Origin: Halobacteriovorax sp.
Lineage (GTDB): Bacteria; Bdellovibrionota; Bacteriovoracia; Bacteriovoracales; Bacteriovoracaceae
DNA length: 64,000 nt
Assembly (NCBI GenBank): GCA_002720865.1
Contig: PBIO01000031.1
Span: 124,001-188,000 of the forward strand
Direction of reading: 5' to 3'
The notes under the pieces are model-generated. The model did not search any database, was not told the DNA's origin, and was given only the letters and a program-made list of their open reading frames with translations. This document shows, one piece after another, positions 25,308 through 40,245 of this stretch (position 1 is its first letter; every line of letters begins with the position of its first letter). The position numbers and the translations under genes are program-made.

Positions 25308-26057
25308 TTATTTAGACGCAGAGCGTTTGGCCATCATTTTTCTCATTTCCTCTGCTCTTGCCTCAGAGTTGATTTCTTGAAAGAGCTTCTCTTCGGTCTT
25401 CTTGTCGACGTTGAGAAAGGCAATTCCTAGCTTGATATTCCCATTGGGTTGTCCAGTAGCGTCTTTGGCCACCCAGCTACCAGCGATTTTACACTGGGCA
25501 ATATCGGTTTTAAATCGATTAAGTCTTAACTGGCATTCGCTAAACTCCTTATCTTTAGCAAATCTTTCAGCCTCTGATTCTGGGACTTCAATACTGGTTC
25601 CACCGGCCGAAATATCTAAACCATCAAAAACTTCTTCATCAATTTTAAATTGAATTGTGACATTCGAAGATTGCATTAAGCGATAGTTGGATCTTTGCTG
25701 AGACTTATAAACTCCTCGGTCGAAAGTTAGAATATAGGCCTTGCTTGTTTCGTCTTGTTGTAAGAGAGAAGTGGTAAAATATTGAAATTTTCCATAGGTG
25801 ATTTTAACGAAAACATCTTTGTCTTTTAATGAGGAGCCCGTTAGTTTTGAAAGAAAGCCCCCTTGGTTTTCAAGGAATAACTTGAGGGCACCCCCGTCGC
25901 CGCCATTGCATTTATAATACTCGACGTCTTCGTGTTTCCCTTGTTCCCAAATATTTACTTCGGCCTTAGCTTCAATAAGCTCCGGAACTAAACCAGCCAC
26001 ATCTTCCTTTGGCATCTGGTCAAAGTAATGTTTTTTATTGGGATCTTTAAAACTCAT
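25308..26057 (-). CDS. PilZ-domain protein, probable cyclic-di-GMP receptor
   Basis: 249 residues, cytoplasmic. The N-terminal half (1-115) resembles a YcgR-N-like flanking domain. The PilZ domain (about 120-235) carries the ligand motifs RSNYR (RxxxR) and DISAGG (D/NxSxxG) plus a WVAKD strand. Both halves of the cyclic-di-GMP signature are intact. AAAGGA precedes the ATG. It is a single gene upstream of the sphingolipid-type operon on the same strand, with 109 bases between, so co-transcription is possible but not shown. Confidence 0.9.
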   Translation of the reverse strand: MSFKDPNKKHYFDQMPKEDVAGLVPELIEAKAEVNIWEQGKHEDVEYYKCNGGDGGALKLFLENQGGFLSKLTGSSLKDKDVFVKITYGKFQYFTTSLLQQDETSKAYILTFDRGVYKSQQRSNYRLMQSSNVTIQFKIDEEVFDGLDISAGGTSIEVPESEAERFAKDKEFSECQLRLNRFKTDIAQCKIAGSWVAKDATGQPNGNIKLGIAFLNVDKKTEEKLFQEINSEARAEEMRKMMAKRSASK

Positions 26058-26228
26058 ATGTCCTTTATTTTAAACCGAAACGAGTTTTTAAAAAAGAATA
26101 CAGAATAGGCAAAAATTGTCCTAACTCCTCGAAATCATTTACCTTAAAAACCTGACAAAAGGCAGCTCAAAGGGCATAATCCGGCTTTATTTAGCTTATA
26201 AGCACCATTTAGCCCTTAGGGAACGATT

Positions 26229-28871
26229 ATGAAGACTGAAACACCTCAAACTATCCATCTTAAAGACTATAAAAAGCCGACCTATACGATCACGGATATT
26301 CATCTAACTTTTGACCTCCATGATACTCAAACAAAGGTCAAAACTAAGATGTCCGTTGAGTCGACTGGTGTAGAGAAGGGAGCCCCACTGGTTCTTAATG
26401 GGGAGCAGCTGGTTTTTAAAAAAGCTTCCATCGATGGAGCCCAGCTAGAAGCAAGCCGCCTAGAGCTTGGTGATGATCTTTTAACAATCAAAGATGTCCC
26501 GGAAAAGTTTACTCTTGAAATTGAAAATGAAATTAACCCAGAAGCGAATAAGGCTTTGGATGGTTTATATAAATCAGGAAGTATTTTTTGTACTCAAAAT
26601 GAACCGGAAGGGTTTAGAAGAATTACTTATTATATTGACCGTCCCGATGTGATGGCCAAGTTCACCACCAAAGTAATCGCCGATAAAAAACTTTATCCGG
26701 TTTTACTTTCTAATGGAAACCCACTTGAAAGAGGGGATCTTGATGGTGGTAAGCATTTTGTTGTTTGGGAAGATCCGTTTCCAAAACCATCTTATCTTTA
26801 CGCCCTAGTGGCCGGAGATCTTGGGTTGGTCAAAGATACTTATAAAACTATGAGCGGAAGAGAAATTGCTCTAGAGATCTTTTGTGACAAAGGGAATGAA
26901 GATAAATGTGGTCACGCCATGGAATCTTTAAAAAAATCCATGAAATGGGACGAAGATACTTATGGGCTTGAGTATGATTTAGATATTTATATGATTGTTG
27001 CCGTGGACTCTTTTAATATGGGTGCCATGGAAAATAAGGGCTTAAATATTTTTAACTCCGCATATGTTTTGGCCAAGCCTGAAACCGCAACTGATGATAA
27101 TTTCCTTGGGATTGAAGGAGTTGTGGGACATGAGTATTTCCATAACTGGACCGGGAATAGAATTACATGCCGTGACTGGTTTCAGTTAACGCTCAAAGAA
27201 GGCTTAACGGTTTATCGTGATCAAGAGTTCTCAAGTGATATGAACTCCGCGGCGGTTAAGCGAATTCAAGATGTAGATATTCTAAGAAACCATCAGTTTA
27301 GAGAAGATGCGGGACCAACGGCTCACCCAATAAAGCCGCCTTCGTATATTGAAATAAATAATTTTTATACTTCAACGGTTTATGACAAAGGTGCTGAAGT
27401 TATTCGAATGATTGAAACTTTTCTTGGTAAAGAAGGTTTTAGAAGAGGGATGGATAAGTACTTTGAGCTTTATGACGGACGTGCCGTTACGACTGAAGAC
27501 TTTATTCACGCCATGAGCATCGCCAATTCTAATTATGACTTTGAGCAATTCAAGCTATGGTACGCACAGGCGGGAACTCCTCAAATTGATGTAAAATGGA
27601 ACTACGATGCCTCTGAAAAAGTATATACCTTAACGGTCATTCAATCTTGCCCTCCAACTCCTGAGCATGATGAGAAAAGACCTTTTCACTTTCCACTCAG
27701 AGTTGCTCTTCTTGGTAAAACAGGAAATGAATTGCCATTAAATTTAGTCGATAAAAAAGGACAACCTCAAATTGAAGAAGGAATTCTTCATATGAGATCT
27801 GAAACAGAAACTTATATCTTCACAGGAGTAGAAGAAGAGCCGACTCTTTCTATAAATAGAGGCTTTTCAGCTCCGCTTAAAGTTTATACACCTTATAAAG
27901 AATCTGATCTTATTTTCTTACTTGGAAATGATACAGATCAATTCAATCGCTATGAAGCCGCTCAGCTAATGGGTCAAAGACTTGTTTATCATAACTTAAA
28001 AGAAAAACATGATGGAAAAGAGCTTACTCTTGATGCGGATTATATTGAAGCATGGGGAAAAGTTTTAGGGGATGAGAGTTTAGACGGACTTATTAAGTCT
28101 GAAATTCTATCCCTTCCTAGTGAATCAATTCTTCAGCAAGGTCATAGTCCAATTGACTACAAGGGACTTCACGAAGTCAGACGTTGGATGAAAGGTGAGC
28201 TGGCCAAGGCCCATAGAGAGCTACTTCAAAAAACCTATGACGGTCTTAATATTGAAAAACCTTACAAGCTTGACCCAAAATCAATGGGTGAGAGAAGTTT
28301 AAAGAATGTATGTCTTTCATTTCTAGCAGTGCTTGATGATGAAGCGGCTCATGAACTTTGTTACTCACAATTTTCAAAGGCCACAAATATGACTGAAGAG
28401 ATTGCGGCCCTCTCTTTTCTAATTAACTGCAATACTGACTTAAGTAAAAAAGCAGTTAATGAGTTTTATGAAAAGTGGAAGCACGAAACCCTCGTCATGC
28501 AAAAATGGCTGGGAGTTCAAGCTTCCTGTCGTTTTGACTCAACACTTGATCGCGTTCTCGAACTAGAGAATGATTCAGTTTATGATAAGACCGTTCCGAA
28601 CCTTCTTAGATCACTTCTTGGTGGCTTCGCTAGAAACGCGGTTCAGTTCCATAGAGAAGACGGTGCCGGTTATAAGTTCCTAGCTAAAAAGATTCTTGAG
28701 ATTGATAAGATCAACCCTCAAATGGCCTCAGGCCTGGCGGGAATCTTTAGAGACTATAAACGTCTTAATGAGTCAGCGAAAGGCAAGATGAAAGTTGAAC
28801 TTGAGGCCTTAAAAGAGACTGAAGGTTTATCTAAAAATACTTACGAGATTGTTTCTAAGATACTTCACTAG
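26229..28871 (+). CDS. pepN: aminopeptidase N (M1 family)
   Basis: 880 residues, close to the E. coli enzyme (870). The exopeptidase motif GAMENKG is at about 264, the zinc site HEYFHNWTGNR at 301 with His301, His305 and Glu324 (LKEGLTVYRDQEF), followed by the catalytic Tyr region (FYTSTVYDKGAEVIRM). It removes N-terminal residues from peptides in the cytoplasm. The domain order is beta-sandwich, thermolysin-like domain, small beta domain, then the C-terminal helical superhelix. The stop codon TAG is the first three bases of the 75-base repeat, so the last residues may have changed when the repeat arrived. Confidence 0.97.
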   Translation: MKTETPQTIHLKDYKKPTYTITDIHLTFDLHDTQTKVKTKMSVESTGVEKGAPLVLNGEQLVFKKASIDGAQLEASRLELGDDLLTIKDVPEKFTLEIENEINPEANKALDGLYKSGSIFCTQNEPEGFRRITYYIDRPDVMAKFTTKVIADKKLYPVLLSNGNPLERGDLDGGKHFVVWEDPFPKPSYLYALVAGDLGLVKDTYKTMSGREIALEIFCDKGNEDKCGHAMESLKKSMKWDEDTYGLEYDLDIYMIVAVDSFNMGAMENKGLNIFNSAYVLAKPETATDDNFLGIEGVVGHEYFHNWTGNRITCRDWFQLTLKEGLTVYRDQEFSSDMNSAAVKRIQDVDILRNHQFREDAGPTAHPIKPPSYIEINNFYTSTVYDKGAEVIRMIETFLGKEGFRRGMDKYFELYDGRAVTTEDFIHAMSIANSNYDFEQFKLWYAQAGTPQIDVKWNYDASEKVYTLTVIQSCPPTPEHDEKRPFHFPLRVALLGKTGNELPLNLVDKKGQPQIEEGILHMRSETETYIFTGVEEEPTLSINRGFSAPLKVYTPYKESDLIFLLGNDTDQFNRYEAAQLMGQRLVYHNLKEKHDGKELTLDADYIEAWGKVLGDESLDGLIKSEILSLPSESILQQGHSPIDYKGLHEVRRWMKGELAKAHRELLQKTYDGLNIEKPYKLDPKSMGERSLKNVCLSFLAVLDDEAAHELCYSQFSKATNMTEEIAALSFLINCNTDLSKKAVNEFYEKWKHETLVMQKWLGVQASCRFDSTLDRVLELENDSVYDKTVPNLLRSLLGGFARNAVQFHREDGAGYKFLAKKILEIDKINPQMASGLAGIFRDYKRLNESAKGKMKVELEALKETEGLSKNTYEIVSKILH

Positions 28872-28943
28872 GTGCCAGTTACCTTTTGGGACTTTCTGCG
28901 TTACTTCGTAACGCTATTAGTCCCAAAAGGTAACTGGCACCTA
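28869..28943. repeat. 75-base hairpin repeat, copy 1, supplies both flanking stop codons
   Basis: The ends form a perfect 25-bp inverted repeat (28869-28893 against 28919-28943, beginning TAGGTGCCAGTTACC). The middle folds into a second stem, GCGTTAC-TTC-GTAACGC (28898-28914). The unit starts with the TAG stop of pepN and ends with CTA, the stop of fbaA read on the minus strand. It matches the copy at 36322 except for one base (28918). TA at each end may be a target-site duplication, as with IS630/Tc1-type MITEs. A REP element moved by a RAYT transposase is the alternative. Confidence 0.9.
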
Positions 28944-30008
28944 ACATAGTATAGATTTTCCGTCTGACTTAAGATCTTTGATCGACTGAATAATTCTATC
29001 GGTCATTGCGTTTTCTGCTTTTTTGCCCCAGGCTCTTGGGTCGTACTGCTTCTTATTTCCAACTTCGCCTTCAAGCTTTAAAACTTCATCGTAGTTCTTC
29101 ATCATATGATCAACCACTGGTCTAGTATAAGCATATTGAGTATCTGTATCGACGTTCATCTTGATCACTCCATAACCTAGAGTTTCATGAATATCTGATA
29201 GCTCAGAACCAGAACCTCCGTGGAAAACAAGAAGGTGACGATGCTCTGGTCCAAGTTCTTTTTCAACAGCGTCTTGTCCGTCTCTTAAGATGGTTGGACG
29301 AAGCTTAACATTACCTGGCTTATATACCCCGTGTACGTTTCCGAATGTGGCCGCGTACATGATTTTTCCAATAGGGTTAAGCTCTTTTGCTATTTGAACC
29401 ATCTCTTCAGGAGTTGTGTATAATTTATCAGCTGGCATATCTTCGTTATTAACACCATCTTCTTCGCCGCCTACAACTCCAGTTTCAACCTCAAGAATGA
29501 TTTGGTTCTTGGCACATCTTTCTAGTAGCTGTTTTGATTGGGCAATATTTTGCTCAAGAGGAAGCTCACTTCCATCGAACATATGAGAGTTAAAAAGATT
29601 TGGCTCACCTTTGGCTCTTCTTCTTTCAGTTTCTTCGATAAGTGGAATCATAAAAGATTCTACTTTGTCTGGGTGGCAGTGATCCGTATGAAGGGCCACG
29701 CAAATATCTAGCTTTTCTGCCATGAGGTGAACATGCTGAGCCAGTGAAATCGCTCCAAGGGCCATATCGTTTAGGGCCTGACCTGAGCAATACTGACCAC
29801 CGCCAGATGAGACCTGAATGATTCCATCAGACTTAGTATCAGCGAAGGCCTTAAGGGCAGCATTGGCCGTTGAAGTTGAGGTTACATTGATGGCCGTAAA
29901 AGCAAATTGCTCTTTTGACGCTTTTTCAAGCATTTGGCAGTACTGTTCGTAATTAGCTACAGGCATTTGGCTTCCTTTGGAGAAAATATTTTTAAAATTC
30001 GCAGGCAT
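28941..30008 (-). CDS. fbaA: fructose-bisphosphate aldolase, class II
   Basis: 355 residues, class IIA. Motifs: AFTAINV near the N-terminus, QVSSGGGQYCSG, the metal-binding HTDHCHPDKV, SHMFDGSELPLEQNI, EVETGVVGGEEDGV, FGNVHGVYKPGNVKL and VFHGGSGSE. These bind Zn2+ and the sugar phosphate. The enzyme interconverts fructose 1,6-bisphosphate with DHAP and glyceraldehyde 3-phosphate in glycolysis and gluconeogenesis. Length is near the E. coli enzyme (359). The stop TAG lies inside the terminal inverted repeat of the 75-base element, and the last codon before it is Cys. Confidence 0.97.
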   Translation of the reverse strand: MPANFKNIFSKGSQMPVANYEQYCQMLEKASKEQFAFTAINVTSTSTANAALKAFADTKSDGIIQVSSGGGQYCSGQALNDMALGAISLAQHVHLMAEKLDICVALHTDHCHPDKVESFMIPLIEETERRRAKGEPNLFNSHMFDGSELPLEQNIAQSKQLLERCAKNQIILEVETGVVGGEEDGVNNEDMPADKLYTTPEEMVQIAKELNPIGKIMYAATFGNVHGVYKPGNVKLRPTILRDGQDAVEKELGPEHRHLLVFHGGSGSELSDIHETLGYGVIKMNVDTDTQYAYTRPVVDHMMKNYDEVLKLEGEVGNKKQYDPRAWGKKAENAMTDRIIQSIKDLKSDGKSILC

Positions 30009-30112
30009 TAAACCCTAAGAAAACAGGTATTTCTACGCGCCCTGCTTCTTTTTCACGGTGGCCTGATAAATATTCGTTTCTTTGGTAAAAATCGATCTGA
30101 TAGGAGTTATTT

Positions 30113-31102
30113 ATGCGTATTTTGATTGGTTTATTGGGGTTTGCCCTAAGTTTAAATTCTTTTGCTATTAGTGAAATTAATTACAAAGAGAACTTCGATA
30201 AGTTAGTGGCTCCTTTTTATAACTCAGGTCAAACCGAAACTCTGGCCGCAAGAGATGGAGTTAAGCTTTCCTATCATAAAATCAATCAAGGAAAGAAAAA
30301 GCTTATCTTTATGATGGCCGGAAGAACTGAAGCGGTCTCTAAATATGCTGAAGTTGTCTATGATTTAAAAGATGAAGGCTATGACTTCTTACTTCTTGAT
30401 AGCAGAGGACAAGGTCTATCTGAAAGAGAGCTTGGGGATATTCAAAAGGGCTGGGTAAAATCTTATAAGAAATACATTACTGACATTGAAGATCTCTTTA
30501 AGGGCTTAAAGCTAAAAGAAAACTATGAAGAGATTGTTTTTCTTGGACATTCAATGGGGGCGGCCATTGGGCTTAGATATGCTGAGGTTAATCCTAAAAG
30601 CTTTTCTAAGATAGTTGTAAATTCACCAATGATTGAATTAAAGCTCGATGATAAAAATGAAACTGTAGTTGCTATGTACATGAGACTTAAAGTTTTAACT
30701 GGGGCTGGAACTGATTATATTCCTGGGGGCGGACCTACAACTGAAGAATATCCCTTCGAAAATAATCGCGTGACTCATAGTCCAGCACGTTTTGAGATGG
30801 CCAGAGAGTTAGAAAGAGAAAACCCTGAGCTTATTATGGGCTCGGCCACGGTAAAGTGGGTTCTTGAAGGCATCAAGATGGGGCGCAAAACCTATAAGAA
30901 GAGAAAGAAACTCTACAAAACACCGATGCTTATGTTTCAGGCCGGTATAGAGCATTTTAGTCGTTATAAAAGACAAGATAAAATCTGCAAAGAGCATCCA
31001 AAATGTGAAAAGGTCTTAATCAAAGAAGGAAAGCATGAACTCTTGCAAGAGAAGGATGAGATCAGAAGTCAGGTGATTTCTAAAATTAAAGCTTTTCTTT
31101 AG
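30113..31102 (+). CDS. exported alpha/beta hydrolase, PldB-like lysophospholipase
   Basis: 329 residues with a signal peptide (MRILIGLLGFALSLNSFA). The alpha/beta-hydrolase body resembles lysophospholipase L2: an MMAGRTEAVSKYAEVVYDL segment, the LLLDSRGQGLSER loop, the nucleophile elbow GHSMG (Ser147) and a C-terminal EGKHELLQEKDE with the catalytic His. E. coli PldB is inner-membrane associated without a cleaved signal; here export is clear, suggesting action on periplasmic or prey lysophospholipids (inference). Its 3' end overlaps the convergent FkbM gene by 17 bases. Confidence 0.82.
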   Translation: MRILIGLLGFALSLNSFAISEINYKENFDKLVAPFYNSGQTETLAARDGVKLSYHKINQGKKKLIFMMAGRTEAVSKYAEVVYDLKDEGYDFLLLDSRGQGLSERELGDIQKGWVKSYKKYITDIEDLFKGLKLKENYEEIVFLGHSMGAAIGLRYAEVNPKSFSKIVVNSPMIELKLDDKNETVVAMYMRLKVLTGAGTDYIPGGGPTTEEYPFENNRVTHSPARFEMARELERENPELIMGSATVKWVLEGIKMGRKTYKKRKKLYKTPMLMFQAGIEHFSRYKRQDKICKEHPKCEKVLIKEGKHELLQEKDEIRSQVISKIKAFL

Positions 31103-31961
31103 GAATAAAAAGAAAGTCTAAGAGGTCTTCATTTACTTCGAAGGCCTCAGGAGCTTCTAAAAGCTCAAAAGATTCGTCTTTTTCAATGGCGATTAAATAA
31201 TCAAGTTCATTAAAAAGCTTATAAAAATCTGAAAAGGACTTCCCGATATTTTCAACCCAGTGGCGATTATACTCCGTTTGAATCACAGGTCTGGTCTTCT
31301 TTAAAAAATTCATACCACCTTCAAAAACAAAGTATTCAGCCCCTTCAATATCAATTTTAATAAAGTCGCAGGCATCAATTTTATGTTCACTGGTAAAACT
31401 ATCTAAGGTCACCATCGGCACTTCAGACTTAATTCCTTCACCACTATTAGTATTTATATTGTCGCCTACGGCATTGCCTACAAAGTCTTCGCTAGGCAAG
31501 GTAATCGTAAGGGTTCCTGCTTTATTTCCCATGGCCAAGTTAAAGGGCAATATATTAGAAAAATTATTTCTTGAAATATTATCTTGTAATTGAAGAAAAT
31601 TATTTTTTAAGGCTTCGATGGCGAAAACCGTTGGTTTTAAATCTTTATAAACCTGGGCATAGGCGCAGGCATAGAGGCCTATATTTGCGCCTATATCTAG
31701 AATCACTGAACCAGGCTTTAGGAACTGAGAGGCCATAAATATATTTTCGTCATGATACTGACCGGAGAAGAGAATATTTTTTAAATAAGGCTGGGTGGGC
31801 CGTATTCTCATATTGTGCCCTAGACGCATCTTTTTTTTATAGCCAACCTCTGGGGAAGGGTCAGAATGAATCAGCTTGTAAAATAGCCAGAGGGGAAAAC
31901 GGTACAGTTTTGAGTACTGAATTCGCTGAAGCGGAGAATGATACTTTTTGATTTTTCTCAT
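31086..31961 (-). CDS. FkbM-family methyltransferase
   Basis: 291 residues. The SAM-binding region GSVILDIGANIGLYACAYA is followed by FAIEALKNN, the DSF segment, and CDFIKIDIEGAEYFVFEGG, the FkbM hallmark. A C-terminal VIQTEYN strand completes the domain. Members O-methylate sugars or polyketides. The N-terminal 60 residues are basic and without a known fold. It lies divergently upstream of the E1 gene and convergent to the hydrolase, with no operon partner. Given glycosyltransferase and epimerase genes nearby, a surface glycan is a possible substrate. Confidence 0.85.
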   Translation of the reverse strand: MRKIKKYHSPLQRIQYSKLYRFPLWLFYKLIHSDPSPEVGYKKKMRLGHNMRIRPTQPYLKNILFSGQYHDENIFMASQFLKPGSVILDIGANIGLYACAYAQVYKDLKPTVFAIEALKNNFLQLQDNISRNNFSNILPFNLAMGNKAGTLTITLPSEDFVGNAVGDNINTNSGEGIKSEVPMVTLDSFTSEHKIDACDFIKIDIEGAEYFVFEGGMNFLKKTRPVIQTEYNRHWVENIGKSFSDFYKLFNELDYLIAIEKDESFELLEAPEAFEVNEDLLDFLFIPKEKL

Positions 31962-32084
31962 ACAGCTCTATCTTATCAAAATTTAAGGAATGGGCATCGC
32001 GTTAACTTAAGCTATATTCATTGCCATTTAAACCCCATTTGGTTAGTTTTTACTTCTTATTTTAGGTACATATAGAGGCTTGTT

Positions 32085-34133
32085 ATGCTTATGAAAGTGG
32101 CGAAAAAGTTCACATTAAAAAACACAGAAAAAGATACATTAAAACTTTGGTACTCATTGCTAACTCTTGGACGTCAGTTAGATGAGAGAGCTCCGAATTA
32201 TTTAAAGCAGGCCATTGGTTGGTCTTACCATGCTCCTTATGCTGGACATGACGGAATTCAGTTGGCCATCGGTCAGGCTTTTACAATGGGTGAGGATCAT
32301 CTTTTCCCTTACTACCGGGATATGCTTACGGCCATGAGTGCTGGAGTTAGTGCTGAAGAAATTATCCTTAATGGAATCTCAAAAGCGACAGACTTAGCCT
32401 CTGGTGGAAGGCATATGAGTAACCACTTCGCAAAGCCAGAGTGGAATATTCATAATGTAAGTTCTTGTACAGGAAATCATACTCTACATGCAGTAGGTGT
32501 CGCTCGCGCCATGAAACGATACGGTCATAAAGGTGTGGCCATCTCTTCTCAGGGTGAATCTTCAGTTTCTGAGGGTTATTGCTACGAGGCCATTAATGGA
32601 GCCTCTAAAGAGAAGCTTCCAGTTATTTTTGTTTTTCAAGATAATGGCTATGGCATCTCTGTTCCGAAAAAAGATCAAACTGCTAATGAAAAAATCTCTG
32701 ATAATTTTAGAGGCTTTGCAAACCTAAGAATCATTCAATGTGATGGTAAAGATATCTTTGACTCTATGAACGCCATGGCAGAGGCCCGTAAGCATGTGCT
32801 TGAAAAGGGTGAGCCCGTAATCGTTGACGCTGATTGTGTGAGAATTCATTCTCATTCTAATTCAGATAAGCACGAGCTATATAGAAGCGAAGAAGAAAGA
32901 GCTGAAGCCAAAGCCCAAGATCCTCTTGATGCTTTTAAGAAACTCATGACGGCCAATAAGCTTCTTACAAAAAAAGAAATGGAACAGCTTGATAATGAAG
33001 CTAAAGAGATGGTTGTTGAAGCTCATATGAACTCTATGAAAGCTCCCAATCCTGACCCGGCTTCTATTTATGACTTTGTCATTCCTGATCATCCGGTGAG
33101 TGAAAAATACCCGGAAGGAATTTCAGAGGGGGTTGGCGAAGAGATGAAGTTCATCGACGCCCTTAACTCAACTTTAAAGGCAGAGTTTCGCCATAACCCG
33201 GACACATATATTTGGGGGCAAGATATGGCCAACAAAGATAAGGGTGGAATCTTTAATGTTTCAAAAGGAATGCAGCAAGAATTTGGAATTGAAAGAGTTT
33301 TTAATGCACCAATTGCAGAGGATTTTATTGTAGGAACAGCAAATGGTTTTTGCCGTTTTAATAAAGACATTAGAGTTGTTGTAGAAGGGGCCGAGTTTGC
33401 CGATTATTTTTGGCCCGCTATGGAACAGTTAGTTGAAACGACTCATGATTACTGGAGATCAAACGGAGCCTACTGTCCTAACTTTACTATTAGGTTGGCC
33501 AGTGGTGGTTATATTGGTGGGGGACTTTATCATTCCCAGAATATTGAAGCTTCACTTCTTCCATTTCCAGGATGTCGTATTGTCGTTCCGGCCTTTGCAG
33601 ATGATGCTGCAGGACTACTTAGAACTTGTATGAGATCAGAAGGATTAAATATCTTCTTAGAACCAAAAGCTCTTTATAATGCTAAGCATGCAATGAGCCA
33701 GGTTCCAGAAGATTTTGAAGTTCCTTTTGGAAAATGCCGAGTCAGAAGAGAGGGTACTGATCTCACAATTCTTACTTACGGAAATACTGTTCATCACTCC
33801 CTCGAAGCTGCTGAGAAAATTGCGTCAGAAGATGGTGCCTCAATAGAAGTGGTCGACCTAAGAAGCCTAAGTCCTTTAGATGAGGAAGGTATTTTGAAAT
33901 CGGTTAGAAAAACTAACCGCTGTTTAGTTGTTCATGAAGATAAGGTCTTTGCAGGTTTTGGTGGAGAGTTAGTCGCTCTTATTAATGAAAAAGCATTTGA
34001 ATCCCTTGATGCACCAGTAAGAAGAGTCGGTTCTGAGTTCACTCCTGTTGGGTTTAATAGAATCCTAGAAAGAGCAACACTGCCCAATGCAGATAAAGTA
34101 GTGGCCGGTGCGAGAGAACTTCTTTCTTATTAG
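32085..34133 (+). CDS. 2-oxoacid dehydrogenase E1, fused alpha and beta subunits (branched-chain type)
   Basis: 682 residues. Residues about 15-335 are the thiamine diphosphate E1-alpha domain (YHAPYAGHDGIQLAIGQAF, GGRHMSNHF, GESSVSEGYCYEAIN, FVFQDNGYGIS). Residues about 350-680 are E1-beta (GQDMANKDKGGIFNV, NAPIAEDFIVGTANGF, the transketolase C-domain). Fused versions of the branched-chain 2-oxoisovalerate dehydrogenase E1 are common in Bacteroidetes and in predatory bacteria. It decarboxylates 2-oxo acids and passes the acyl group to an E2 lipoyl protein, not in this window. Branched acyl-CoA from it would prime iso-fatty acids. The start MLMK has AGAGG six bases upstream. Confidence 0.88.
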   Translation: MLMKVAKKFTLKNTEKDTLKLWYSLLTLGRQLDERAPNYLKQAIGWSYHAPYAGHDGIQLAIGQAFTMGEDHLFPYYRDMLTAMSAGVSAEEIILNGISKATDLASGGRHMSNHFAKPEWNIHNVSSCTGNHTLHAVGVARAMKRYGHKGVAISSQGESSVSEGYCYEAINGASKEKLPVIFVFQDNGYGISVPKKDQTANEKISDNFRGFANLRIIQCDGKDIFDSMNAMAEARKHVLEKGEPVIVDADCVRIHSHSNSDKHELYRSEEERAEAKAQDPLDAFKKLMTANKLLTKKEMEQLDNEAKEMVVEAHMNSMKAPNPDPASIYDFVIPDHPVSEKYPEGISEGVGEEMKFIDALNSTLKAEFRHNPDTYIWGQDMANKDKGGIFNVSKGMQQEFGIERVFNAPIAEDFIVGTANGFCRFNKDIRVVVEGAEFADYFWPAMEQLVETTHDYWRSNGAYCPNFTIRLASGGYIGGGLYHSQNIEASLLPFPGCRIVVPAFADDAAGLLRTCMRSEGLNIFLEPKALYNAKHAMSQVPEDFEVPFGKCRVRREGTDLTILTYGNTVHHSLEAAEKIASEDGASIEVVDLRSLSPLDEEGILKSVRKTNRCLVVHEDKVFAGFGGELVALINEKAFESLDAPVRRVGSEFTPVGFNRILERATLPNADKVVAGARELLSY

Positions 34134-34207
34134 TAACTGATTAAATAAGTCTAAAATACTTTTTACCTCTAAGTTTGCTAAACTATTAGTGAACTTAGAG
34201 GTTAATT

Positions 34208-35371
34208 TTGAAAAAACTAAATATCGTCATTGTCATGGTTGAACCCCCGTTACCTTTTGGTAATGCGGCGGCAAGATGGTTTTATGTTTTACTTAAAGGA
34301 TTGGTAGAAAGAGGGCATCAAGTTCGCGCCTTTGCCGTTTGTTCTAAAGAAGCTGAAATGGAAAAGGCTAAAAAACTTTTTCCAAGCTCTGAGTATGACC
34401 TAAAGCTTTATCCTATTAGAAAAAAATCTTCTTTAACTCAAAAAGTTAACTCTCTATTAAGGCCTTATTCTTTTAAAATTAGTGAACAGATGCAAAGAGA
34501 TTTAGATGTGGAACTCTCTAAAGGCTATGACGTTCTTCATATTGAACAGATGTGGGGAGGCTGGGCCGCACTAAAACATTTAGAAAAAGCCGTATTAAAT
34601 ATTCATCACTATCAGCTAATTGATTTAGAGTATACAAATAGCTCAAGCCTAAAAGATCAATATGAAAAGTGGCAGATTAAAAGAGCAGAAAAACTCATCA
34701 CGAAATATTTTAAGACTATTAGAACTTGCTCTCCAAGGCTTGAAACTAAAGCAAGGGAGTTAAACCCGAATTCGTATATTAAAACTAATCCCGTTGGTAT
34801 TGATGGCGCTCTCTATAATTATATTCAAGATGAGGAGAGGGGAGTAGAGCCGACCATCGTCATGATTGGAACAATGACTTGGTATCCAACCTCTTCAGCT
34901 GCCGTAAGGTTACTAGATCGACTTTGGCCAGAGATTTTAAAACAAGTGCCAAACGCAAAGTTAAAAATTGTGGGTTACGACGCCAAATCAGTTTTATCAA
35001 AATACATTAATAGTGAAGGTGTAGAAATTTTTGAAAATGTCCCGGAGATTGAGCCTTACTTTAAAATGGGTTCTGTTTTTGTATATGCTCCCGCTCGAGG
35101 CAGCGGAATGAAGATTAAGATACTAGAAGCAATGCTTTTTGGAATCCCCGTCGTAACCACAAGTGAAGGGGCAGAGGGTCTACCCGTTGTAGATGGAGAG
35201 CACGCGGGGCTTTGTGAGGATGATGAGGGTCTTATTCGCCGAGCAGTTGAACTTTTAAAAGATGTGGAAAAACAAAATATACAACGTAAAAAAGCTAGAG
35301 AGCTTGTGGAATCCGTTTGTGGACCAAAGGCTACTTTAGATACTATGGAAGAAATTTATTCTAAAATATAG
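34208..35371 (+). CDS. glycosyltransferase, GT4-like
   Basis: 387 residues with two Rossmann-like halves. The N-terminal acceptor half has PPLPFGNAAARWFYVLLKGLVERGHQV. The C-terminal donor half has VMIGTMTWYPT, AKLKIVGYDA, and VFVYAPARGSGMKIKILEAMLFGIPVVTTSEGAEGLP, the E-x7-E-type nucleotide-sugar site of GT4 proteins. The start is TTG at 34208 after AGAGG. It is followed by an epimerase gene eight bases later, so both probably make or attach a sugar on a surface glycan or glycolipid. No signal peptide; cytoplasmic or membrane-associated. Confidence 0.88.
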   Translation: MKKLNIVIVMVEPPLPFGNAAARWFYVLLKGLVERGHQVRAFAVCSKEAEMEKAKKLFPSSEYDLKLYPIRKKSSLTQKVNSLLRPYSFKISEQMQRDLDVELSKGYDVLHIEQMWGGWAALKHLEKAVLNIHHYQLIDLEYTNSSSLKDQYEKWQIKRAEKLITKYFKTIRTCSPRLETKARELNPNSYIKTNPVGIDGALYNYIQDEERGVEPTIVMIGTMTWYPTSSAAVRLLDRLWPEILKQVPNAKLKIVGYDAKSVLSKYINSEGVEIFENVPEIEPYFKMGSVFVYAPARGSGMKIKILEAMLFGIPVVTTSEGAEGLPVVDGEHAGLCEDDEGLIRRAVELLKDVEKQNIQRKKARELVESVCGPKATLDTMEEIYSKI

Positions 35372-35379
35372 GAGTTATT

Positions 35380-36324
35380 ATGAGTACAAAATGGATCGTC
35401 ACAGGAGCCGCTGGCTTTCTTGGATCACATGTTATTGAACAACTTACTGAAAAAGGTGATGAGGTAGTTGCCATTGATAATATGGAATGGGGTGTACAAA
35501 AGCATATAGATCCATTTTTAGATAAACCGAACTTCAAGTTTTATAAACAAGACATATGTGAAATTGAAGCTATTCAAAAAATCTTTAATGAAGAGAAGGC
35601 AACAGGTCTAATTCACCTAGCGGCCATTCACTTTATACCTGACTGTATTAAGGACCCGTCAAAAGCTGTTAAATTCAATATCTTTGGAAGTCAGGTGGTC
35701 TTAAAAGCCGCCCTTGATTCTGGAGTTAAGAACTTATGGTTTGCCTCTACGGGGGATGTTTATAAACCAAGCGAAGAGCCCCATAAGGAAGAATCTACCG
35801 TTGAGCCTTTTAATATTTACGGAAAGAGTAAGCTTTTAATGGAAGAGTTGGTTCGATTTGCGGCCAATGAAAATCCAGATAGACGAATTGTCATTGGAAG
35901 GCTTCTAAATCTTTATGGAGCTAGAGAGACTAATCCCCATATTCTCCCAGAAATTATTGGTCAGCTTAAAAAAGATATCAACACAACACTTAGGTTAGGG
36001 AATCTTTATCCTAAAAGAGATTTAGTTCCAATTCATGAAGTGGCAAAAACAATTTATGAAACTTTCGACAAGGTTGAAGACGGGTGTTACACCTTGAACT
36101 ATGCAACTGGTGTTGCCCAGTCAATGCAAGAAGTGATCGATATGATTGGAGAAGTTCTTGGTAAAAAAATAAATGTTGAAACTGACCCTGCAAAAGTTCG
36201 AAAGTCTGAAAGACCACATCTTCAAGCTGATGTTTCAAAGCTAAAAAATATTTTAGGATGGACGCCTAATCACGACCTAAAAAGTGGTCTTACCGAACTT
36301 TTAAAAGGAGAGGGCCTTTTATAG
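35380..36324 (+). CDS. NAD-dependent sugar epimerase/dehydratase
   Basis: 314 residues, extended SDR. GAAGFLG (8-14) binds NAD; IDNMEWG follows; catalytic FASTGDVY and YGKSK (Tyr/Lys) are present; then LNLYGARETNPHILPEII and a QADVSKLKNILGWTPNHDL C-terminus typical of UDP-sugar 4-epimerases and dehydratases. It probably provides the nucleotide sugar for the glycosyltransferase just upstream, with which it forms an operon. Substrate not determinable. Its TAG stop is the first three bases of the 75-base repeat copy 2. Confidence 0.9.
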   Translation: MSTKWIVTGAAGFLGSHVIEQLTEKGDEVVAIDNMEWGVQKHIDPFLDKPNFKFYKQDICEIEAIQKIFNEEKATGLIHLAAIHFIPDCIKDPSKAVKFNIFGSQVVLKAALDSGVKNLWFASTGDVYKPSEEPHKEESTVEPFNIYGKSKLLMEELVRFAANENPDRRIVIGRLLNLYGARETNPHILPEIIGQLKKDINTTLRLGNLYPKRDLVPIHEVAKTIYETFDKVEDGCYTLNYATGVAQSMQEVIDMIGEVLGKKINVETDPAKVRKSERPHLQADVSKLKNILGWTPNHDLKSGLTELLKGEGLL

Positions 36325-36396
36325 GTGCCAGTTACCTTTTGGGACTTTCTGCGTTACTTCGTAACGCTATAAGTCCCAAAAGGTAACTGGCACCTA
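36322..36396. repeat. 75-base hairpin repeat, copy 2, supplies both flanking stop codons
   Basis: Same 75-base unit as at 28869, with one substitution (A at 36371 where copy 1 has T) that lengthens the stem by one pair. It begins TAGGTGCC and ends GGCACCTA. The first TAG is the stop of the epimerase gene and the last CTA is the minus-strand stop of the cyclase gene. The flanking sequences outside the unit differ from copy 1, so this is a mobile or amplified element, not a larger duplication. Confidence 0.9.
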
Positions 36397-38628
36397 TTTA
36401 CTTGTAAGAGTAAAGACTCCATCCCAATCTGCACCGGGAGGATTCTCTTTAAAGGCCTTACATCTTTCTAAGTAAATCTCAGACGGATTAGTTTTCTTAC
36501 CTTTTAAGAGGGGGAAGCGTTGATATTCAAGTTCCAGAGTCTGGGTGAAGAGGTCGATGGCCCCGTTCCAGTCCTGCGATTTATAGGCCTCAATTCCTTC
36601 TTTAAATTTTATAGCAAGCTCTTTTAAATAATCCGGTGCTGTACTATGGAGACCAATAAGATCAAAAGTTGTTACAGGAATAGATTTACCAACAACCTTA
36701 ATTGTATCTAGCTCTCGCCAAATAAAAAGTTCATCTCCAGCGGCTTCTTTTGTTTCAGCAGAAACTTGTGTGAAGATACCATATTGCTTAGCTGATTCTT
36801 CTAGTCTAGCAGCCAAGTTCACAGCATCACCCATCATGGTATAGTTCATTCTTGAAGCAGACCCCATGTTTCCGGTAACAATTTCACCAGTATTGATACC
36901 AATCCTCATTCTCATTTCGTGAACAATTAGTGGCCATTTATCACCTTCACTGACCCATTTTTCCCTTAGGACTAAAAGAGCCTCCTGCATTCTATGGGCG
37001 GTCATCACCGCCCTCTCAGCATGATCTGGAAGTGGCATAGGAGCACCGAAGAAAGCGATAATGGCATCACCTTCATATTTATCTAGAGTCCCTTTTTCTT
37101 CCAATAGAATATCGGTCATTGCGGTTAAGTACTCATTTAATAGTTCAACCAATTGAGTTGCAGAGAGTTTTTCAGAAAAAGAAGAAAAGCCCTGAATATC
37201 CGTAAAGTAAGCCGAGCGAATCCCTGAATCTCCACCTAGTTTTGGAGCTTCACCGGTCTCATACATCTCATCAATAAGTTCAGGAGAGATATAGTTTCCA
37301 AAGGCGTTCTTTAAAAAAGCCTTGTCCTTGTTCGCAATATAAAAATGCAAGAATGTATTCCAAGAATAACAGGCACCTATACTAAAGAGACAAAAGAATA
37401 ACTTGATCTCGTAACCTTGAGGTAAGAGAACAAATGTATCTAAGTAATAAACACCACCGGAAATTAACACTACCGAAATCAAGTCGATTAAAGCATTCCC
37501 ATATAATTGAATAACGAGAATTAAGAGAGTTCCTAAAATAAGAATTAACCAAGAATATTTTGTTGATTGCTCATAAGGAGCAAAGAATTTTCCCTCTAAA
37601 AGCATATGGGTCATATTCATATGAAAGAAGACCCCAGGGAGAAGTGGGTCAACTGGAGTATGTCTAATATCATGGGCGGCAAAGGCGGTTGAACCTACAA
37701 AAATAATTTTGTTTTCTAAAAGTGATTTCCATTTGGGATCATTATCGTTCGACTTTAAAAGTTCAATAATTGAAAACTCTGGAAAAGCTAATCTATCTCC
37801 AAGCCATCTAATTTTAGCTTCACCTTTAATATTTAGGTTAAGTGCTCCATTTTTAATCTTTAATCTAAAATCGCCAATATTTAATAAGTCTACAGACGCC
37901 TTATCGCCGGTATAGGCTTCATAGGCGGAAAGAGAAAAAGAAGGAAAATATATATCGTCAACATTACCAACAAGAGGGTAGTGCCTAAAAATACCATCCG
38001 AATCAGATTCAACCTGGAGGTGAGTAAGAATGGCATCCGTTTCTTGAAGCATTGGAATAGGGAACTGTTCCTTTCCCACGTACCATGGAGCAAGGCTAAT
38101 ACCTTCCCCTTGCTTGGTATCCATAATAAAATTATAAAGAACCTCTGGTAGCTCCTGCCCGTCTTCTTTCCATCTTGTTAAGGCGTAAGGGAGTATAACT
38201 TTATTACCAGGGACTGATTGGAAATTTCTAATGGCGTCTGCGAAAACTACATCTGGGTTTTCCCCATTGCAGACAAGAGATGGCTCAGGGTAAAAAACAT
38301 CAAAGGCCACAACTTTTGCTCCATAATGCTTAAGCTTATCGAGCATCTTTCCCCAAGTTTGCCTTCGTATTGGCCATTCTCCTAGGCCATTGATGGTGGC
38401 ATCATCGATGGCTGCTAAAACAAGTCTTTCATCTTTGGCGTCATAGTTTAAGGTTTGTTTCATACGAATATCGTAAAACCTATCTTCAAAGAAGGTTGTA
38501 TAGGCAAAGAACTTCTTAATTTCGTAGTCTTGAATATCCCTTTCAGAAATTGCGAAGAAAATTGAAATTGCTGAGAAACCTAGAATTACGAAAATACCTA
38601 GGTATTGAATAAATTTAGTCATGGTCAA
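36394..38628 (-). CDS. CHASE2-domain membrane adenylate/guanylate cyclase
   Basis: 744 residues. One N-terminal membrane helix (about 8-26) leads to an exported CHASE2 sensor domain (LVLAAIDDATINGLGEWPIRR, AFDVFYPEP). About residues 355-420 form three more helices. The class III cyclase domain follows (about 465-650): AYFTDIQGFSSFSE and KYEGDAIIAFFGAP with the two metal Asp, RIGINTGEIVTGNMG, and MMGDAVNLAARLE. It makes cAMP, or possibly cGMP, in response to an extracytoplasmic signal. A C-terminal TPR-like stretch ends the protein. Last gene of an operon with FecR and TPR-barrel genes; its stop comes from the repeat. Confidence 0.93.
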   Translation of the reverse strand: MTMTKFIQYLGIFVILGFSAISIFFAISERDIQDYEIKKFFAYTTFFEDRFYDIRMKQTLNYDAKDERLVLAAIDDATINGLGEWPIRRQTWGKMLDKLKHYGAKVVAFDVFYPEPSLVCNGENPDVVFADAIRNFQSVPGNKVILPYALTRWKEDGQELPEVLYNFIMDTKQGEGISLAPWYVGKEQFPIPMLQETDAILTHLQVESDSDGIFRHYPLVGNVDDIYFPSFSLSAYEAYTGDKASVDLLNIGDFRLKIKNGALNLNIKGEAKIRWLGDRLAFPEFSIIELLKSNDNDPKWKSLLENKIIFVGSTAFAAHDIRHTPVDPLLPGVFFHMNMTHMLLEGKFFAPYEQSTKYSWLILILGTLLILVIQLYGNALIDLISVVLISGGVYYLDTFVLLPQGYEIKLFFCLFSIGACYSWNTFLHFYIANKDKAFLKNAFGNYISPELIDEMYETGEAPKLGGDSGIRSAYFTDIQGFSSFSEKLSATQLVELLNEYLTAMTDILLEEKGTLDKYEGDAIIAFFGAPMPLPDHAERAVMTAHRMQEALLVLREKWVSEGDKWPLIVHEMRMRIGINTGEIVTGNMGSASRMNYTMMGDAVNLAARLEESAKQYGIFTQVSAETKEAAGDELFIWRELDTIKVVGKSIPVTTFDLIGLHSTAPDYLKELAIKFKEGIEAYKSQDWNGAIDLFTQTLELEYQRFPLLKGKKTNPSEIYLERCKAFKENPPGADWDGVFTLTSK

Positions 38629-38646
38629 ATTCCTTTTAGACCTATT

Positions 38647-40245
38647 TTAAAAATTTGCGCTTATTTCAAATCCAGTAACATGTTTGGTGTATTCATTGCT
38701 TTCACCGGCATCAGAAACCTTTTTTGAATAATCATAATTCACCGATAACTTTACATTGGGCCTGACTGCTTTACTTAGCTTAATACTTGGAGCGTAAGTT
38801 TTTTCAGTTCCCGTTCGAGCCAGAGTTGCCAGGACTTTAAGAAATGTGACCGAAAATCCAACATGAAAAGAATATTGGTTGGCAAACTTTGGAACGATAT
38901 AATCCACCCTTAGCATTGTTGTATCTGAATCATTGGTAGGGGCTTTATGAAATCTACTTTCTGAAAAGTTCCACATCAATAAGAAAAGATTCCCACTGGG
39001 TCTAATTACAGTTTGAGTAAGAGTCCAACTGGTCAAATCAAAGTTTAGATTGGAATCATGGTATTCTGTCGTTCCATTTGAGTAGCTAACTCCAGAGTCT
39101 CCAAATTTAAAAAAGCCAATTTTCTCACCTACAGACCAGGTTCTTCCTTGGCTATATTTGCTAAGGGATTTTAATTGGTATTGGTCTCTTGCTGCGTAGT
39201 CTATTTTATAATCAAAAGTAAAACTGCCGGGCTTACTTCCTAGTTTATGATCAAGCCTTTGCTTAATAGCAGGTTTAATCTCATATCTATCATCTTCATA
39301 AACACCAGGGGATTCTCTGTCAGAATGCTTTACATATTTAAGCTTTAGCTCAGGGGTAATAATGTACATTTGGGCAAAAAGAAATGAGTATGATGCGTTT
39401 GCATTGGTTTCATAGATATAAGAATCTTTTCTCGTGTCTTGAACCGTCGGAAGATTGGTAGTTAGAGTAATATTATTATCATATTTATAGGCTTGTGAAA
39501 TAGATAGGCGGTACTTTTTCGCAGGAAACATCTTTCCAGAGATAAGCTGATTAGGATCTAGCCTATATCTTCTAATGACTTCTTTTTTTCTCGCCACAAC
39601 ATCTTTTGAGAGCCTAGACTTATCGTCAATGGCGATTGCCTTATCATATCTTGGGATAATATGTTTTTTTACTAATTCTCTTGTATTGTCTTTTTTAGTC
39701 GCTAGCTCTAGAAAAATTTCAGCTAATTGATAATTGGCAATCTGTAAGTATTCAGGCGTTGAATCTTTTTGTTTAAGCATTTCAGCATAATATTTTTTAG
39801 CTTTTTGAAAATCTTCTAGAATTTGACTGGAGTAGGCGACGTAATAGTAAGAGATAGAAGGTTTAAAGCCAGACTTTGCTGAAAGAACAAAATACTTTTG
39901 TGCTTCAGCTAGATCATTATTTCCGTAATAGGCCTGACCAATTTCATAATAAAGGTCAGCTCTTTTTGAACCTAAAGCGAGGGCCTTCTTTAATGACTTT
40001 GTGGCCGGGTCAAATTGTTCAAGTCTGGATTGGGCAATACCTCTAAAGTACTCTTTCTCAGCTCTTGATTCTTTCTTTTTAGGGTTATAATTTTGAAGGG
40101 CTTTTAAAACTTCTGGATAAAGCCCTTGGATAAATAAATTTGATATTGCTTTGAAACCACTTTGATTTGCTTGTGAGTTTTGAGCAAAAACAAGAGTTGA
40201 ATTAAATAAAATTAAGAGACATACGAGAGCCTTTAGACTTGGCAT
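38647..40245 (-). CDS. exported TPR protein with C-terminal outer-membrane barrel
   Basis: 532 residues from the ATG at 40245, chosen because it begins a signal peptide (MPSLKALVCLLILFNSTLVFA). The longer frame would start inside a terminator-like hairpin. Residues about 20-200 hold TPR repeats (GSKRADLYYEIGQAYYGNNDLAEAQKYF type). About 235-532 are beta strands with a final aromatic residue (EISANF), the pattern of an outer-membrane barrel. TPR-barrel fusions can bind partners in the periplasm and cross the outer membrane. With FecR upstream and a CHASE2 cyclase downstream it may be the surface part of a sensory system (inference). Confidence 0.78.
   Translation of the reverse strand: MPSLKALVCLLILFNSTLVFAQNSQANQSGFKAISNLFIQGLYPEVLKALQNYNPKKKESRAEKEYFRGIAQSRLEQFDPATKSLKKALALGSKRADLYYEIGQAYYGNNDLAEAQKYFVLSAKSGFKPSISYYYVAYSSQILEDFQKAKKYYAEMLKQKDSTPEYLQIANYQLAEIFLELATKKDNTRELVKKHIIPRYDKAIAIDDKSRLSKDVVARKKEVIRRYRLDPNQLISGKMFPAKKYRLSISQAYKYDNNITLTTNLPTVQDTRKDSYIYETNANASYSFLFAQMYIITPELKLKYVKHSDRESPGVYEDDRYEIKPAIKQRLDHKLGSKPGSFTFDYKIDYAARDQYQLKSLSKYSQGRTWSVGEKIGFFKFGDSGVSYSNGTTEYHDSNLNFDLTSWTLTQTVIRPSGNLFLLMWNFSESRFHKAPTNDSDTTMLRVDYIVPKFANQYSFHVGFSVTFLKVLATLARTGTEKTYAPSIKLSKAVRPNVKLSVNYDYSKKVSDAGESNEYTKHVTGFEISANF

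Follow-up and report, generated by a model that had tools for sequence, protein, structure and literature searches.

The window analysed here, a stretch of 64,000 nucleotides from Halobacteriovorax sp., contains two 75-bp hairpins, S1 and S2, which are identical at 74 of 75 bases and each of which lies between two convergent genes. All four neighbours are real genes, since Pfam domains are present in each of them. As the earlier note had read from the letters, a near-identical repeat is present in two copies and supplies the stop codons of both convergent neighbours in each, so that four of four stops fall in frame, with TAG as the first and CTA as the last bases of the element. The features of the two sites, with the basis on which each was assigned, are as follows.

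26229..28871, plus strand: neighbour, peptidase family M1 with DUF3458 domains (Pfam domains)
28869..28943, no strand: REPIN-like element, copy S1 (sequence, genome search, fold, pairwise comparison)
28869..28871, plus strand: TAG stop of the M1 aminopeptidase gene, made of TA and the first G of the arm (in frame)
28871..28893, plus strand: left REP arm of S1, GGTGCCAGTTACCTTTTGGGACT (arm pattern)
28898..28914, no strand: inner stem-loop of S1, GCGTTAC-TTC-GTAACGC (compensating changes among copies)
28919..28941, minus strand: right REP arm of S1, inverted (arm pattern)
28941..28943, minus strand: TAG (CTA) stop of the aldolase gene (in frame)
28941..30008, minus strand: neighbour, fructose-bisphosphate aldolase class II (Pfam domains)
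35380..36324, plus strand: neighbour, GDP-mannose 4,6-dehydratase/epimerase family (Pfam domains)
36322..36396, no strand: REPIN-like element, copy S2 (74/75 identical to S1)
36322..36324, plus strand: TAG stop of the GDP-mannose dehydratase/epimerase-like gene (in frame)
36324..36346, plus strand: left REP arm of S2 (arm pattern)
36372..36394, minus strand: right REP arm of S2, inverted (arm pattern)
36394..36396, minus strand: TAG (CTA) stop of the CHASE2-cyclase gene (in frame)
36394..38628, minus strand: neighbour, CHASE2 and adenylate/guanylate cyclase domain (Pfam domains)

Architecture of the element and its copies in the genome

The element has a REPIN-like layout, in which a (TA)GGTGCCAGTTACCTTTTGGGACT arm and an inverted second arm enclose a variable spacer with a stem of its own, and its outer foot reads TA|GGTGCC. 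The predicted fold has an energy of -56.7 kcal/mol against -16.5 +/- 2.8 kcal/mol for 200 shuffled sequences, which places the hairpin far from chance. A search of the whole genome with the arm pattern returned 34 matches against one for the reversed control; two of them (C1:10657 and C4:1717) were judged to be chance matches, three (C14:1392388, C20:146364 and C31:86486) were left out of the site analysis, and weak matches to the element with E > 2 were likewise set aside. Eight two-arm copies were found, along with single arms that are more varied (up to 3 mismatches). Among the two-arm copies the arm cores are nearly invariant, positions 10-24 and 52-66 of S1 showing no change, while the spacer differs from copy to copy and its inner stem carries compensating changes, seven pairs having both partners altered (covariation 0.163; shuffles 0.071, none of 500 being as high). 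The single arms resemble REP units, and a short perfect palindrome, for example GGTGCCAGGCACCTTTTGG, occurs in several of them; folding single arms as RNA gave nothing clear. Some two-arm copies lie near one another: the two of the window (contig C31) are separated by 7.4 kb, and those at C11:302828 and 306583 by 3.8 kb.

REPINs were defined in Pseudomonas fluorescens SBW25 (Bertels and Rainey 2011, PMC3116915). Like those described in the cited parts of that paper, the element is an inverted pair of REP units which, together with a spacer bearing compensating changes, folds into one long hairpin; it is repeated and mainly extragenic, its doublets (n = 8) are more conserved than its singlets, and it is linked to RAYTs. 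It differs from them in having about eight doublets against hundreds in SBW25, in a GGTGCC foot without the conserved GTAG or GTGG, and in that no RAYT of the same arm is found in the genome. The GTAG/GTGG tetranucleotide is absent from the feet of the window copies, which have CTAG and ATAG, and a GTAG foot is present at the RAYT unit R1 described below and at one unit in G013, a genome of a different genus. Judged by its architecture, the element is REPIN-like, a presumptively mobile small hairpin of a known kind made of two inverted REP units. The exact 23-base arm had no match in collections of genome and viral contigs, from which its own and very near records were possibly excluded; the 75-base element had none in the genomes of 58 relatives, and Rfam gave none within positions 26000-39000 of the window.

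Stop codons at the copies and in related genomes

We examined 24 REP/RAYT sites in the genome, comprising eight two-arm copies, four RAYT genes and 12 single arms. Five of these supply stops, at eight ends (both ends of S1, S2 and R1, and one end each of two single arms). Among the two-arm copies only the two of the window, both between convergent genes, do so; the remaining six have no stop role, two lying between plus-strand genes, one between minus-strand genes and three between divergent genes. Scoring all copies, as the earlier note had proposed, thus upheld the stop role for the window and not its generality, and the first outcome which that note had named as counting against it, a majority of copies away from stop codons, is partly borne out. 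A stop lies within about 10 nt at 14 of the 24 sites, against a rough null of 0.17 taken from the window's intergenic space, a count for which edges and gene calls were set partly by hand. The spacing of uninserted convergent genes in the window is small as well, 7 of 12 such pairs being between -17 and +4 nt apart.

These counts bear on the view that the hairpin is a dedicated module, kept by selection, which ends both translations and halts converging transcription. The stem is very stable and both stops are in frame in both window copies, and the cited part of PMC12306157 reports ribosome stalling in E. coli at REPs located no more than 15 nt from a stop. Such a module would hardly be expected to have six of its eight two-arm copies away from convergent stops, three of them between divergent genes. 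The T-run that follows the G+C-rich stem of an intrinsic terminator is absent from both window copies, and a terminator pattern scan, restricted to loops of 3-8 and not above shuffles in its result, listed neither of them, although its loop limit may exclude both. Moreover, both relatives compared below manage without the element at 36322, and we hold this reading to be highly improbable.

The eight stop-bearing ends were compared with their orthologues in two genomes of the same genus, G001 and G002, giving 16 comparisons, of which one was dropped as the pair was not orthologous. The terminal codon was the same in 11 of the remaining 15 comparisons, one of these 11 bearing a REP itself, and the other four differed by 1, 1, 4 and 6 residues. 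Each of the eight ends has at least one element-free orthologue of equal C-terminal length, and the ten element-free orthologues of equal length end with TAA (five) or TAG (five). Since element-free relatives end their proteins at the same codon, we conclude from these comparisons that the stops pre-existed and that the element settled at them without shifting the protein ends. The element would then sit on the stops of both genes because these pre-existed and the arm starts directly after their TA. Orthologous sites with and without the element thus make the question of whether such repeats create or reuse stop codons directly answerable, and the answer here is reuse.

At 36322 both relatives lack the element; G001 has TAG, 15 nt and CTA, while in G002 the two stops overlap by 8 nt and are not of the yTAr type. 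A clean insertion into either state would not yield the present sequence; starting from the state of G001, its native spacer of about 15 nt would also have to disappear. The numbers of extra native spacer bases in G001 and G002 are 19 and -3 at 36322, 10 and 10 at S3, 12 and 10 at S5, 56 and 66 at S6, and 17 and -9 at S7. As the relatives keep more native spacer at several sites, bases were likely lost with or after insertion. The 28869 pair has no true empty site in the relatives, G001 having another left neighbour and G002 an extra gene between the pair, which by eye is methyltransferase-like and lies between the aminopeptidase and aldolase genes (L088). It may also be mentioned that G001 has a seemingly decayed REP-like arm (L096) at the locus orthologous to C11:306583, where the present genome has a two-arm element.

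The earlier note had proposed a TA-targeting MITE inserted into a TA shared by the overlapping stops of a convergent pair. What stands of this is a non-autonomous mobile hairpin that has TA at either end and lies between convergent genes; insertion into a shared TA does not hold as a general model. When the element and one TA were removed from the present sequence, 28869 collapsed to cTAa, which holds both stops, whereas 36322 gave aTAt and R1 gave gTAc, neither with a stop, so the model fits one of three double-stop units. The relatives stop at the same codon in most comparisons and do not have the shared-TA pair expected at 36322. The three uninserted pairs with a 4-nt overlap of the shared-TA type are indeed present in the window (15984, 21074 and 56370), and TA stands outside 12 of the 16 arm ends of the eight two-arm copies, with ends placed by eye, against 9.8% in the window's intergenic sequence, as an IS630/Tc1-type element would have it. 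The transposase genes, to which we now turn, speak otherwise.

RAYT genes and their inverted arms

The genome has four Y1 transposase genes (R1-R4), all of them RAYTs, with REP_Tyr_transpos (NF047646) as their best NCBIfam match (E 1e-16 to 1e-19, below the cut-off of the model). For R1 there is in addition a match to the solved structure of E. coli TnpA-REP (4er8; E 2.5e-5). HxH (HuH) and Y-xxx-NP are retained in all 13 aligned RAYTs, as in E. coli TnpA-REP and its relatives, and cleavage of single-stranded REPs is, as there, the likely mode of action (PMC6006769, PMC8266576, as far as the cited parts go). The YIYQNP motif found here fits none of the RAYT subclasses listed in the part of PMC6006769 cited, some of which are without REP-like repeats, exactly; the nearest is 2.6, YIH[QN]NP. 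Inverted arms of the same general design as those of the element flank R1-R3, not R4. The R1 arms are perfect over 25 nt, and the unit supplies TAG stops at both ends of a convergent pair. It lies at G000:C19:40309 (L018:1360-2124), where it provides the stops of both neighbours, a SIS-domain gene and one that is TatA-like. Searches of the genome with PF01797 and with NF047646 at E <= 1 brought up no RAYT bearing the GGTGCCAGTTACCTTTTGGGACT arm, whose cognate enzyme may have been lost; for this reason we call the element REPIN-like.

Out of the two kinds of transposase that the earlier note had suggested looking for, the RAYT was thus found, in four genes, and the DDE_3 domain of IS630 was not (PF13358 only, no match in the genome at E <= 0.01). 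With this search empty, an IS630/Tc1 origin was rejected. Inverted arms of the element's general design belong to RAYT genes, and among other RAYT units of the clade the number with TA at both ends does not clearly exceed what independent ends would give (6 of 48, expected 3.8, permutation p 0.10). Together with the failure of 36322 and R1 to collapse to a shared stop, this leaves insertion of an IS630/Tc1-type MITE into a shared TA very unlikely.

Y1_Tnp matches occur in 38 of the 59 genomes of a sample of the family. Inverted arms were found at 28 of 47 scored RAYT genes (score >= 14, shuffles reaching 12; the scoring excluded loci without HxH in the best frame, one locus at a contig edge and two that were not placed). 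They were also found at 62 of 80 named RAYT loci, mostly Bdellovibrionota records, at a threshold of 13 (shuffle maximum 13, 99% at 12); a GGT-type foot is present at 50. Inverted arms are lacking at the other 18 loci, and the pattern used detected no GGT foot at 12. A set of 28 RAYT units, four with weaker arms, was picked by hand and overlaps partly with the 80-locus set (L169 = L222). The predatory Bdellovibrionota, in which most of the RAYT genes detected stand between inverted arms, join the REP/RAYT world.

Of the 50 units with a GGT foot, 48 entered the TA count, two ending at a contig edge. TA was present at both ends in 6, at one in 15 and at neither in 27, and hence a two-sided TA is not a rule for RAYT-unit ends. 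Stop offsets were taken at 56 ends, defined as those RAYT-unit ends with a gene of 100 codons or more running towards them and ending within 60 nt. The commonest offset was -2 (TA|GG read as TAG; ten ends, all TAG), followed by -5 (six), and 23 of the 56 fell between -6 and -1. One unit, L276, supplies both stops like the window copies. In G013 we found a REP family of 17 arms (control 0), nine of which have a stop at -2 to -6.

A likely route to the stop codons

We consider it likely that the element is REPIN-like, has been spread by a RAYT, and survives where its foot follows the TA of a pre-existing stop. A Y1 single-strand transposase of the RAYT kind would act on the folded hairpin, and going by the genes and arms at hand it is probably a RAYT that moves the element. 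The arm would be placed directly behind a TA, which we take as the insertion point. A foot landing after the TA of TAA or TAG would be harmless, as TAG is then restored by the first G of the arm. Convergent genes nearly touch in the host genome, and the surviving insertions would be those that spare the protein ends, selection rather than targeting presumably accounting for the positions at stops. The long stem may in addition act on the 3' ends of the transcripts.

The peak at offset -2 (10 of 56) is the sharpest observed, and with the nine of 17 arms in another genus and two different REP types at one stop codon in two species (the H1 site) it is what one would expect if the RAYT system actively preferred TA sites of stop codons, instead of selection removing other insertions. 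In a compact genome, however, such a pattern is equally expected from purifying selection; some copies are found between divergent genes, and TA precedes only 27 of the 96 RAYT-unit ends while AA precedes 41. An active preference is therefore possible, is not needed to explain the pattern, and seems unlikely to us. We regard as unlikely, too, its stronger form, in which the RAYT units and REPINs of Bdellovibrionota home to the TA of stops, single-stranded TAA or TAG being preferred, a few spacer bases being replaced and both stops being re-formed, so that insertion is harmless by design. If RAYTs did prefer stop codons, this would amount to a self-limiting transposon lifestyle in a compact genome. 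Survival at pre-existing stops remains the reading we favour.

REPs that donate stops are already known from other bacteria, and the element is a further example, as far as the cited part of Di Nocera et al. (2013, PMC3733652) goes, where GTAG REP ends are described as often providing TAG stops. Unlike in those REPs, the base preceding TAG is not a conserved G in the element, and the cited part mentions no Bdellovibrionota and gives no comparison with empty sites. The same text names RAYT-like genes between other inverted repeats TIRtrons or TIRYT genes, some of whose repeats form moderately abundant families and also dimers. The units found here resemble TIRtrons in that a RAYT-type gene stands between inverted non-GTAG repeats, and differ from their description there in lacking the GGGGWSAS motif, the arms sharing GGTRCC, often with a CTTTTGG tail. 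A search of a limited collection of papers found none on RAYTs in Bdellovibrio or on REP or palindromic elements in Halobacteriovorax.

Two further observations may be added. At G000:C20:115438 (L028) and at its counterpart in G001 (L103), REPs of different types (GGTGCCAGTTACC and GGTACCTGGTTACTTG) stand at the identical stop codon, while a third species has none there (TAA). In G013, 14 of the 17 arms of the REP family lie on contig C6, which bears its RAYT unit, and this suggests local spread.
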